Below, one piece after another: positions 4,208 to 45,460 of a stretch of 64,000 bases of DNA. The stretch is from Candidatus Peribacteria bacterium. Lineage in GTDB: Bacteria; Patescibacteriota; Gracilibacteria; Peribacterales; Peribacteraceae. The stretch covers positions 327,649-391,648 of the forward strand of contig JAHFJN010000001.1 in assembly GCA_023245865.1 (NCBI GenBank), in the 5' to 3' direction. Every line of letters starts with the position of its first letter. The stretch's first letter is position 1. The position numbers and the translations under genes are program-made. The notes below the pieces were generated by a model that saw nothing but the letters and a program-made list of their open reading frames with translations, ran no database searches and was not told where the DNA came from.

Positions 4208-4225
4208 GGTATATGAACGTACACC
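4208..4225 (-). promoter_or_regulatory. Putative operator dyad upstream of recA (site A)
   Basis: Minus strand GGTGTACGTTCATATACC. It lies directly after a promoter-like TTGACC-17 nt-CATAGT, and shares GGGTGTACG with 4289-4306 and 21984-22001. Confidence 0.5.
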
Positions 4226-4288: not shown

Positions 4289-4306
4289 GGTGTATTATCG
4301 TACACC
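4289..4306 (-). promoter_or_regulatory. Putative operator dyad upstream of recA (site B)
   Basis: Minus strand GGTGTACGATAATACACC; perfect GGTGTA-N6-TACACC dyad preceded by TAAAAT. Confidence 0.5.
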
Positions 4307-20413: not shown

Positions 20414-21625
20414 ATGCCATTTGCCGTATCCACAGAACACCATTCTGATGAAAGAGAGAGTATTTCCTCGCCAGAGGCCCTCAAAATAAAGATCGTCGGC
20501 GGTGCTAACGAAGTAGCCGATGTGCTGCTGGCATTTAAGGGAAGGCAGATGCTTCCGGTGAATTATTCCGTCGTTCCGGGGGAAATCATCGGCACATTTT
20601 ACCTTACCATGGTCGTTCCACCGCGCGATCCTTCTTCGACCAGAAGGAATCCTCAGGATAATCCGACTGCGTTTCTTGCAACGATGCCTTCTGTGATCGA
20701 AGTCATTGATGCAACGGAACCCCTTCGTCGTCACATGAGACTGGTTGCAAATACCAATCATCCTGACGCAGGAATTTTACGATGTGCGATAGAACAACTG
20801 GGGGGCAGTGCTCAAGGGAAATTGAGAGACAAATTAAAATTAACTGCCGATACTATGGTACTGGATTCCATTGCATCAATCTGCAGGAGCGTGCAAGGCA
20901 TCGTCCATCAAGGAAAGATAAACTCTCCTTTTACGACCGTCATGACCGATACGCCCACTCCCATACAAGAAGATGCCAGAGGAGGACCGAATGCCGCACC
21001 GGAAGCAGTTCGACATGTGCTCAATATTCAATGCTGGCCCGAGTTTCAAGACGATAGAGAAGATAAAAACATCCTCAAAATTCTCTCGACGCATCAATTC
21101 TCCATAGCATCCGTCGGCAGTCGCATGCGCGAGGACAACAAAGGTGTGCAGGAAATAACAATTATGCTACATGGCGGGAGTAGTGCAGCACTTCAAAAGG
21201 CATTGGCTGAAATCTGGAGACTCGCCGGAGTGATCCGCGCTCGATGCATCCGGGAGGAACATTCCACACAATATGTGCAAGTTGCTTTTCCCATGAGTGC
21301 AAAATGGGAAATGCCACATTTTTTAAAAGCACATAAAGGTTTGCACACCCGGGATAAAATAACCGAGCGATGTCAAATCGTTGTCACGGGCTCTTTGCCA
21401 TTGTATGAAGCCGCAAGAGTATGGAAAGACTTAGCTGGAACAACTGTGGGAATGAGACCTAACGCGGCTATTTGCCTAACAAATAATGGAGAGCCCTTTG
21501 TGCCACCGGAAACAAGAGGTCTTGAGGACGACATGGAATTTAACAAATTAGTAAGAGATATCGCAATTCGCGACCTTCGAGGCCTTATTGCGCTAGAAAC
21601 ACAGCAAGATGCAATCCGCGCATAA
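20414..21625 (+). CDS. Hypothetical protein, possible tandem ACT-like domains
   Basis: 403 aa; LKIKIVGGANEVADVLLAFKGRQM... and VQEITIMLHGGSSAALQKALAEIWRLAGVIRARCIREE look ACT-like; no firm family. Confidence 0.55.
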   Translation: MPFAVSTEHHSDERESISSPEALKIKIVGGANEVADVLLAFKGRQMLPVNYSVVPGEIIGTFYLTMVVPPRDPSSTRRNPQDNPTAFLATMPSVIEVIDATEPLRRHMRLVANTNHPDAGILRCAIEQLGGSAQGKLRDKLKLTADTMVLDSIASICRSVQGIVHQGKINSPFTTVMTDTPTPIQEDARGGPNAAPEAVRHVLNIQCWPEFQDDREDKNILKILSTHQFSIASVGSRMREDNKGVQEITIMLHGGSSAALQKALAEIWRLAGVIRARCIREEHSTQYVQVAFPMSAKWEMPHFLKAHKGLHTRDKITERCQIVVTGSLPLYEAARVWKDLAGTTVGMRPNAAICLTNNGEPFVPPETRGLEDDMEFNKLVRDIAIRDLRGLIALETQQDAIRA

Positions 21626-21634
21626 TTTCCTCTT

Positions 21635-21709
21635 CTACTCCGACTGCAGCATGTGCTGGAGCAGCCACACGAGAGACAGTATGCCGATGAGGAGAATAAA
21701 AAATGTCAT
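21635..21709 (-). CDS. 24-aa single-transmembrane peptide
   Basis: MTFFILLIGILSLVWLLQHMLQSE; ATG overlaps the upstream TGA stop (ATGA). Confidence 0.5.
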   Translation of the reverse strand: MTFFILLIGILSLVWLLQHMLQSE

Positions 21710-21975
21710 GCGGGGGAGAACTGGGTACGGCGAGTGACCGTGCAGCCAAGCGTCAGGAGAACGCGCTCCAGTCGTCGGCTCACCGGCTCCTGGCGGTGGG
21801 AGGGGAGATACACATGAATGGAAGCAGTCGAGGGAGAACACCGGACCCACTCGAGCAGAGAAGTGGCGGAGAAGTGGTCGCTCTTGGCCTCACTGCGAGA
21901 CAAACTCGCAAAGTCGATCACGACATCCTTCGTGCGCGAGAGAGTGATCGGTGAGTAGCAGGGGAGTGCTTGCAT
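21706..21975 (-). CDS. Small hypothetical protein (89 aa)
   Basis: MQALPCYSPITLSRTKDVVIDFASLSRSEAKSDHF...RLERVLLTLGCTVTRRTQFSPA; internal start at 21975 preferred over 22023 because the dyad lies just upstream of it. Confidence 0.5.
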   Translation of the reverse strand: MQALPCYSPITLSRTKDVVIDFASLSRSEAKSDHFSATSLLEWVRCSPSTASIHVYLPSHRQEPVSRRLERVLLTLGCTVTRRTQFSPA

Positions 21976-21983
21976 GTGAGAGT

Positions 21984-22001
21984 AGTGTACGCTCGTACAC
22001 C
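21984..22001 (-). promoter_or_regulatory. Putative operator dyad (site C), recA-site-like
   Basis: Minus strand GGTGTACGAGCGTACACT preceded by CATTATG; matches recA site A context CATAGTGGGTGTACG. Confidence 0.5.
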
Positions 22002-22114
22002 CATAATGCAAGTGATTTTTCAAGAAAATATTTTATGATGTTCTTTTCTCAGGCCAGAAAAGAACCAAAAGCGCTCCGCCGCCAATCCACACTCCGCCCG
22101 CCCTGTCATTCCTC

Positions 22115-42622: not shown

Positions 42623-45460
42623 TTACCGTCCCCAAAGGGATTGCAAGGAGAGGAACGTCTGATGGAAAACATCTGCGATGGCGCTGAGAAATTGCGACGC
42701 AGACGAAGGCACAGGTACCGCAGATATCAGAGGAGCGGAAGGAATGGGTAGTACAGTGACAGGCTCCGAGGCAACATTCTGTGCGGCAGGGTGAGCCTTG
42801 TCTTCTAAGTGGCACGAAGAATCGCACCCATCCCCATTCACGCTGTTGCTGTCATCGCACTGCTCGCTTGCATCCTTGGTACCATCCCCGCAATGAGCGG
42901 GATGACAATCGGGACGACAGCGATCCGGAATGTTGACGGAATTTTGCAATCCTTCATCGCACGTCTCATTGAAGAGCGTATCGACGACGCCATTGCCGCA
43001 CCGCGGAGTGAGACAAAGCGTGCTGCAACTGTTCGGATCCGTGTCGGAATTTTTACCTCCGTCATCACATTCTTCCCCGATTTCCAGAACGCCATTTCCG
43101 CACGCACTCAGGGTACATGCAGACGTGCATCCGTCGCCGAGAATATCATTGCCGTCATCGCATTGCTCGGCCGAATCTGTGACGCCGTCTCCGCAGTGAG
43201 GCAAGGTGCAATCCTGACGACACACGTCTGGTTTTACATCGGAATTATTGACGCCTTGATCGCATTCCTCCTTGCCTTCACGAATGCCATTCCCGCAACC
43301 GACCGGAACGCTGAAGGGTGGAGGCTCCGCCGGCTTCGTGATGACCGGAATATTCTCCGACGAACGTACATTCTCCTGCACGGGGCTGAAGAGCATGGAC
43401 TGCGCCGAACTGCTGGATGCCGCACGTATGGACTGCACCGCCGGTACTGCTATTTCCAAGAAACGCGAGGGAGGCGCCTTGGACTCACCGGATTCCAGCT
43501 GCTGATCCGACGCATTCACACTGCACACGGAGAGGAATTGCACTATGCACTGTGCCGAACAGGATTTACCGCATGTGGGAATCACAAACAAGCCATCATC
43601 ATCCTTTGCCGGTTCACACTGTTCATGGTCGTTCGCATCCACGATGCCGTTGCCGCAGAAGGTTTTGTGGCAGAAGCGATCACACCCCGCCACCACTCCG
43701 TTGAAAAATCCATTATCGCACGTTTCACCTATTTGCTCCTGCGTCACACCATCGCCGCAGACTGCGGGCGGAGCGGCGCTCTTCAGAGCATCGGACGAAG
43801 CAACGACGCAGCTGTTTGTGCAATTGGGATCTTTGGACGGCTCACATTCTTCATTTTGGCCGTTGCCGTTGAGAATTTGTACAATGCCGTCCCCGCACGT
43901 TGTTCTCTTGCAGGAGCTGGTGCAAGTTTTGGTGGGGCCGTTACTGTTCGAACCGATGTCACACTCTTCTCCCGCCTTTGGATTTGCCTTTGCATCGCCG
44001 CAGGATGAGACCGTGCAATCAAAATTGCATGTGGCATTGCCACCGTATCCACCGTCACACGGCTCCGCCCCTTTCACGAGACCGTCACCACAGAGTGTCG
44101 CACAACTGCTCCTCGGCGATCCGCTGCACGTGTACCCCACCTCGATACTGCAACCGGCAGAGCATCCGTCGCCGGATACTTTATTTCCATCGTCGCAGGC
44201 CTCGCTGTCGGACTTCGTGCCGTTGCCGCAGTTTGTCGTACAGACAGACGGCGATGCATTGGTGCAGGTGAAAGATGTCTCGACCGTACAGGCAGCGGAG
44301 CATCCGTCCCCCGCGACCGCATTGCCGTCGTCGCAGCCTTCATTCCCCGCCCTGATGCTATCCCCGCAGACGGTTGCGCAGACATTGGGCGATGCATTGC
44401 TGCAGGTATATCCCGTCTGCACCGTGCAAGTTGCGGAACATCCATCTCCTGCAGTCGTATTGCCATCATCACATCCTTCACCCGATTGCTTCGTAGAGTC
44501 TCCACAGGTACCAACGGTACACACACTCGGCGTCGTACCCGTACAGGTGTAGCCACTCTCAACCGTGCAGGACGAGGAACATCCGTCTGCGTCGGTCACA
44601 TTTGCATCATCACACCCCTCCGTACTCGCTTTGACGCCGTCACCGCAGGTCGCACTGCATGAACTTGGAGAACCGCTGCAACTGAATCCTGTTTCAACGG
44701 CACAGACGGAGCTGCAGCCGTCGCCGTTCGTTGTGTTACTGTCGTCACAGCCTTCTGCACCGATCTTGTAACCATCCCCGCAGGCAGCGGCGGAGCAGAC
44801 GTTCGGAGTGGCGGTGTTGCAGGACCATCCTGTTTCCGCCTGGCAGTACGAAGCACATCCATCTCCGTCGGTGGTGTTACCGTCGTCACAGCCTTCGGAT
44901 CCTTTGCGATGACTGTCGGCGCAGATACCATCACACGAACTGGGAGATCCGGAGCAGGTCCAGTAGGTTTCAACGGCACAGACGGAGCTGCAGCCGTCGC
45001 CGTTTGTTGTGTTACTGTCGTCACAGCCTTCTGCACCGATCTTGTAACCATCCCCGCAGGCAGCGGCGGAGCAGACGTTCGGAGTGGCGGTGTTGCAGGA
45101 CCATCCTGTTTCCGCCTGGCAGTACGAAGCACATCCATCTCCGTCGGTGGTGTTACCGTCGTCACAGCCTTCGGATCCTTTGCGATGACTGTCGGCGCAG
45201 ATACCATCACACGAACTGGGAGATCCGGAGCAGGTCCAGTAGGTTTCAACGGCACAGACGGAGCTGCAGCCGTCGCCGTTTGTTGTGTTACTGTCGTCAC
45301 AGCCTTCTGCACCTTCGATCATCCCATCTCCACACGTGGCAGCATACGAGCTCTCATAATGCTGCGAAAACAGCACGATCATGGCAAGAAAGGAAAGCAC
45401 GCAACCCGCACCCGAGAGGGTGTAGAGGTGCTTTTTGTGGGTATGTCGAATGTGTTTCAT
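42623..45460 (-). CDS. Large Cys-rich repeat surface protein (DUF4215-type repeats)
   Basis: 945 aa; repeated CGDGxxxxxEGCDDGNTTxGDGCSxxCxxExGxxC; signal/TM at N-terminus. Confidence 0.85.
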   Translation of the reverse strand: MKHIRHTHKKHLYTLSGAGCVLSFLAMIVLFSQHYESSYAATCGDGMIEGAEGCDDSNTTNGDGCSSVCAVETYWTCSGSPSSCDGICADSHRKGSEGCDDGNTTDGDGCASYCQAETGWSCNTATPNVCSAAACGDGYKIGAEGCDDSNTTNGDGCSSVCAVETYWTCSGSPSSCDGICADSHRKGSEGCDDGNTTDGDGCASYCQAETGWSCNTATPNVCSAAACGDGYKIGAEGCDDSNTTNGDGCSSVCAVETGFSCSGSPSSCSATCGDGVKASTEGCDDANVTDADGCSSSCTVESGYTCTGTTPSVCTVGTCGDSTKQSGEGCDDGNTTAGDGCSATCTVQTGYTCSNASPNVCATVCGDSIRAGNEGCDDGNAVAGDGCSAACTVETSFTCTNASPSVCTTNCGNGTKSDSEACDDGNKVSGDGCSAGCSIEVGYTCSGSPRSSCATLCGDGLVKGAEPCDGGYGGNATCNFDCTVSSCGDAKANPKAGEECDIGSNSNGPTKTCTSSCKRTTCGDGIVQILNGNGQNEECEPSKDPNCTNSCVVASSDALKSAAPPAVCGDGVTQEQIGETCDNGFFNGVVAGCDRFCHKTFCGNGIVDANDHEQCEPAKDDDGLFVIPTCGKSCSAQCIVQFLSVCSVNASDQQLESGESKAPPSRFLEIAVPAVQSIRAASSSSAQSMLFSPVQENVRSSENIPVITKPAEPPPFSVPVGCGNGIREGKEECDQGVNNSDVKPDVCRQDCTLPHCGDGVTDSAEQCDDGNDILGDGCTSACTLSACGNGVLEIGEECDDGGKNSDTDPNSCSTLCLTPRCGNGVVDTLFNETCDEGLQNSVNIPDRCRPDCHPAHCGDGTKDASEQCDDSNSVNGDGCDSSCHLEDKAHPAAQNVASEPVTVLPIPSAPLISAVPVPSSASQFLSAIADVFHQTFLSLQSLWGR
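44735..45310 (-). repeat. 276-bp (92-aa) near-identical tandem repeat inside the Cys-rich gene
   Basis: gttactgtcgtcacagccttctgcac recurs at 44735, 45011 and 45287, exactly 276 bp apart; 92-aa unit CGDGYKIGAEGCDDSNTTNG...NVCSAAA. Confidence 0.92.

Follow-up and report, generated by a model that had tools for sequence, protein, structure and literature searches.

A small gene of the Peribacteraceae, a family of tiny and never-cultured bacteria, probably encodes a lineage-specific effector that is repressed by LexA and serves as a damage-induced brake or as a modulator of the SOS response. The gene specifies an 89-aa protein and lies in a stretch of 64,000 nt of a Candidatus Peribacteria genome (assembly GCA_023245865.1), referred to below as the window. 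From its sequence and that of its relatives, we consider it likely that the locus is a LexA-repressed (SOS) transcription unit with the anatomy and regulation proposed here (Table 1). Through lineage-specific SOS effectors, bacteria couple DNA damage to cell-cycle control, and to our knowledge little has been learned about how Patescibacteria, with their reduced genomes, achieve this. Small proteins induced in the SOS response are already known, and the 89-aa family appears to be an undescribed one; being conserved, tightly operator-controlled, probably leaderless and small enough for direct expression, the gene offers a concrete entry point.

Table 1. Features of the locus and of the recA operators in the window, with the evidence for each.
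Feature	Position	Strand	Evidence
-35-like hexamer TTGCAT, 16-nt spacer to TACACT	22006..22011	-	dyad-anchored alignment
LexA-type operator (predicted), perfect dyad GTGTACGAGCGTACAC	21985..22000	-	pattern scan; same dyad before nearly all homologues
-10-like hexamer TACACT	21984..21989	-	right dyad half plus invariant T
89-aa protein, beta-alpha-beta-alpha-beta (predicted), invariant G-C-x-V	21706..21975	-	ORF list, homologue alignment, AlphaFold
24-aa single-TM peptide, class B, MTFFILLIGILSLVWLLQHMLQSE	21635..21709	-	ATGA overlap with 89-aa ORF
recA operator 1 (predicted), GTGTACGTTCATATAC	4209..4224	-	2 mismatches, window pattern scan
recA operator 2 (predicted), GTGTACGATAATACAC	4290..4305	-	2 mismatches, window pattern scan

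A predicted LexA operator precedes the 89-aa gene

The first-pass annotation of this DNA had placed a recA-type operator before the 89-aa ORF, and our scans bear this out. The site, read as GTGTACG-AG-CGTACAC, is an exact dyad with 0 mismatches, and the window holds two further matches, both at recA and both with 2 mismatches. The site itself was correctly recognized and its coordinates were off by a few bases, the 24-nt string that had been quoted spanning 21985-22008 and the dyad 21985-22000; similarly, the ATG at 21975 was correctly placed, and the gap between dyad and ATG measures 9 nt, not 8 nt. In a scan of the whole 1.1-Mb genome the 89-aa gene owned the sole zero-mismatch match to GTGTACGNNCGTACAC, and similar dyads carrying 1-2 mismatches were found at lexA-dinB and, two each, at recA and comM, such that the promoter of the 89-aa gene shares its operator type with recA and lexA.

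Across the bacterial family, GTGTACNNNNGTACAC was present in all 75 genomes, with 228 sites compared with 8 for the reversed control pattern, and a perfect dyad was found at about 50 of the 55 distinct 89-aa-family genes, with one mismatch in 3 further genes. This excess over the control, together with the presence of the dyad before nearly every homologue of the ORF, indicates that the dyad did not arise by chance; its conservation before orthologues is as expected for a gene of the LexA/SOS regulon. The genome also encodes LexA, identified by PF00717 (S24 peptidase) and PF01726 (LexA DNA-binding) matches that both exceed the cut-off, and the residues to be expected of LexA are there: Ser in GNSM, Lys in YTLKR and an Ala-Gly site. 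Since LexA is encoded and related dyads stand at recA, lexA-dinB and comM, the dyad at the 89-aa gene is very probably a LexA operator, and we infer that LexA binds it. In related genomes the dyad occurs before recA, dinB, comM, recG, ssb and rmuC-like ORFs, gene identities that were taken from translations and followed up by searches for part of them.

The promoter layout is of the leaderless type

In an alignment of 47 loci anchored on the dyad, a G before the dyad and a T after it were present in all cases, and the sequence TACACT, formed by the right half of the dyad and this T, would serve as the -10 element. TTG occurred 16-18 nt before TACACT in 43 of these loci, and in 40 the first in-frame ATG was located 7-10 nt past the dyad, which puts the distance from -10 to ATG at 6-9 nt. 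With 6-9 nt between the two the layout is a leaderless one, and the mRNA of the 89-aa gene is probably leaderless. We also surveyed 384 kb of this genome, consisting of the window and another 320 kb. Here TAnnnT was most frequent 6 nt ahead of start codons, ending there in 12.8% of 188 genes and in 0.3% of cases at internal ATGs; SD-like motifs at start codons of the same 384 kb showed neither enrichment nor a peak. Leaderless-type promoters are, by the TAnnnT measure, common in this genome.

The 89-aa protein belongs to an apparently undescribed family

Two rounds of searching, the first with the 89-aa protein by itself and the second with a 45-member alignment, detected homologues in 57 of the 75 family genomes. 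In the other 18, some of them nearly complete, the gene was absent or escaped detection, and so it is dispensable for the lineage. Outside the family, a search of 360 genomes of the class gave no credible match (a single weak one had an E of 0.0048), and a scan of a wider collection with a 6-member subset returned named relatives that belong mostly to Candidatus Peribacteria/Peribacteraceae, which places the window in this group or close to it. Most genomes carry a single copy. The members of the protein family are 80-90 aa long and basic, with a median pI of 9.2; G77, C78 and V80 are invariant in the family alignment and D21, P48 and L73 nearly so, and AlphaFold predicts the fold given in Table 1 with a confident core. 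In close pairs, dN/dS was 0.05-0.34, a range which indicates purifying selection on the protein; the earlier proposal, for which a value near 1 would have been damaging, survives this check.

Gene neighbourhoods vary among genomes, with tyrS-xerC the commonest setting and glyA, an NRAMP-like ORF and recA also found. As the neighbourhoods differ while the dyad stays with the gene, dyad and gene appear to travel together.

Comparison of the whole alignment with Pfam, NCBIfam and PHROGs revealed no family, only scattered matches in one or two members, and a fold search with two AlphaFold models (pLDDT 79 and 78) returned nothing below E 0.001, so that no single target is indicated. A STAS-like identity was considered and rejected, since the PDB profile match (E 0.017) spans 39 residues and Foldseek gave no support, and we discarded a 105-aa version that would initiate at a TTG preceding the dyad, because nearly all homologues begin after it. 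The LexA regulons of Patescibacteria, the same phylum and the same kind of regulon as here, were reportedly treated by Sanchez-Osuna et al. 2017. That study (doi 10.1111/1462-2920.13826) is cited in PMC7739468 and PMC8565304. We found no description of the 89-aa family in the libraries and literature searched, whose reach stopped short of Sanchez-Osuna et al. 2017; judged by these searches, the protein appears to represent an undescribed family confined to this bacterial family, in line with the undescribed type of module that the first-pass annotation had suspected.

Two classes of TM peptide occur near the gene

The 89-aa gene had initially been regarded as one half of a coupled SOS mini-operon. 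Within the window the coupling stands: 89 codons run from the ATG at 21975 to a TGA that overlaps, as ATGA, the ATG at 21709 of a 24-aa ORF, whose product has a mean hydropathy of 2.71 over 16 residues and classifies as a single-TM peptide. The simplest reading is that this class B peptide is co-expressed with the 89-aa gene here. As a general arrangement the mini-operon does not hold, because the 24-aa type is found in three genomes in all, the other two (G029 and G035) both carrying it downstream of the 89-aa gene with a similarity of shuffle p about 1e-5. Homologues of both ORFs beside the same dyad, which the proposal had called for, do exist. Folding of the RNA in the region of the 24-aa ORF and beyond its stop gave no structure (z -0.48), and an ECF-like promoter for the window's own 24-aa peptide was sought and not found. 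On the opposite (+) strand, a 403-aa ORF without a Pfam match (20414-21625) is convergent with the mini-operon and ends 9 nt from the peptide's stop.

A commoner family, class A, is distinct from class B and consists of single-TM peptides of 30-33 aa with the pattern MSRDTRN-x-G-x-AFLLS (loci L153-L182, L012 and L030, with multiple copies close to the gene in L018 and L028). Of its 32 genomes, 23 have class A immediately behind the 89-aa gene and nine have it elsewhere; in G029 the class B peptide overlaps the stop of a class A peptide, and the class A copy of the genome studied here is located away from the 89-aa gene (G000:C3:916371, L181). The motif TAA[CG]-N15-17-CGT, which resembles an ECF-sigma promoter, was present in 26 of 36 class A upstream stretches, some of which are alternative starts of one gene, compared with 1% of random stretches, and was placed mostly 33-38 or 48-52 nt upstream; two ECF-type sigma factors are encoded in this genome. 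In the pairs tested, dN/dS of class A was below 1, values resting on 29-52 codons. Since class A mostly has an ECF-like promoter of its own and lies elsewhere in nine genomes, we regard it as a separate stress gene next door and not simply as part of an SOS operon; a TM peptide as a regular SOS partner of the 89-aa gene is not supported. Furthermore, many genomes keep the 89-aa gene and its operator without any detected TM peptide.

A model for regulation and function

In the model that we propose, the promoter would be of the sigma-70 type and LexA bound to the dyad would mask its spacer together with the -10 TACACT; DNA damage would free the promoter through RecA-stimulated cleavage of LexA. 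The transcript would then begin at the ATG or within a few nt of it, yielding a leaderless mRNA from which the 89-aa protein is translated without a Shine-Dalgarno sequence. Ribosomes that terminate at the ATGA overlap would, in this genome, reinitiate there to produce the 24-aa TM peptide. The product of the first ORF, a small basic alpha/beta domain, would be a late and tightly repressed SOS effector that binds a partner.

As to its function, we tentatively favour a damage-induced brake that holds back division or growth, which we regard as possible. The checkpoint or toxin-like role suggested by the first-pass annotation is possible as well. SulA is the SOS division inhibitor of E. coli, and brakes of the SulA type show tight repression and late induction. 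By analogy, the placing of a perfect operator across the -10 hexamer suggests that the 89-aa gene is likewise tightly repressed and induced late. Like SulA, its product is predicted to be a soluble protein of the SOS response whose promoter bears a strong operator; it is about half the length of SulA, and no Pfam, NCBIfam or PDB match relates the two. Timing in Caulobacter is addressed by PMC12700426, which sets LexA affinity against intrinsic promoter strength and in its title favours the latter. FtsZ is encoded in the genome and is a possible target.

The next candidate, and a rather doubtful one, is that the protein, in the manner of DinI or RecX, acts as a modulator of RecA or of the SOS signal itself and not on division. 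DinI is an 81-aa SOS protein of E. coli that binds RecA and works through an acidic helix. The 89-aa protein resembles it in size, in mixed alpha/beta make-up and in its predicted tight LexA control, and in several genomes (L022, L026, L029 and L087) the gene lies directly upstream of recA, each of the two with its own dyad. However, this adjacency was seen in one genus, the family is basic where the DinI helix is acidic, and Pfam, NCBIfam and PDB searches found no sequence or fold similarity to DinI or any other known modulator.

A broader proposal would unite the 89-aa protein and the neighbouring TM peptides, many of them ECF-driven, in a single stress locus where signals from DNA damage and from the envelope converge, a new class of SOS effector whose mode of action would be unprecedented in bacteria; we consider this unlikely. 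It is more unlikely still that the TM peptide is the active product, with the 89-aa ORF as its leader or partner. Precedents exist in TisB and in SidA of Caulobacter, a 29-aa SOS-induced inner-membrane division inhibitor (PMC4211646), as well as in DinQ of E. coli, a 27-aa SOS-regulated single-TM peptide (PMC3567139), and the hydrophobic 24-aa peptide with its ATGA overlap, its class B homologues behind the gene in G029 and G035, and the class A peptides after the gene in 23 genomes all agree with such a role. The window's peptide is similar in size to SidA, likewise from a small SOS-box gene, and shares with DinQ a TM product from a locus predicted to be LexA-regulated. Unlike in those systems, the peptide is a second ORF behind the 89-aa protein and an accessory confined to three genomes, and the conserved product is a predicted soluble alpha/beta protein of 80-90 aa. 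Strong selection on the 89-aa gene, its retention with the operator where TM peptides were not detected, and the promoters and separate locations of class A all argue against the peptide as the active product.

We give a very low probability to a selfish or phage-derived module that has itself induced through the SOS box. Such a module could explain why the neighbourhood shifts between genera while the dyad moves along, and why LAGLIDADG, RhuM-like and ORF6N-like ORFs adjoin such dyads as well, but the gene is mostly single-copy, spread across one bacterial family and under purifying selection, PHROGs gave no convincing match, and IMG/VR gave none showing the family pattern. The complete promoter pattern had a lone IMG/VR match, which stands before an ORF of 2 codons and was dismissed as chance. 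Finally, it is highly improbable that the dyad serves a repressor other than LexA and that the ORF is no damage gene, for although LexA binding is a prediction and some dyads lie at genes without a known repair role, the same dyad type recurs at lexA-dinB, recA, comM, dinB and recG.

Other ORFs adjoining dyads and a side feature of the window

Two LAGLIDADG endonuclease ORFs in this genome, L070:2378-2949 (G000:C3:1005377 onward) and L072:2482-2951 (G000:C3:822481 onward), begin just past the LexA-like dyads GTGTACGAGTGTATAC and GTGTACAATCGGACAC; one is within a 23S rRNA gene and the other downstream of a 16S gene, and they are possibly SOS-switched homing endonucleases. In relatives, perfect dyads adjoin RhuM-like or ORF6N-like ORFs and precede a DNA cytosine methyltransferase ORF (L046, L116, L090, L099 and L078:1107), names that were read off translations. 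Because LAGLIDADG and other non-repair ORFs also adjoin dyads, a dyad alone is no proof of a role in DNA damage. Elsewhere in the window, the minus strand encodes a 945-aa Cys-rich protein with CGDG..E.CDDGN repeats (42623-45460).
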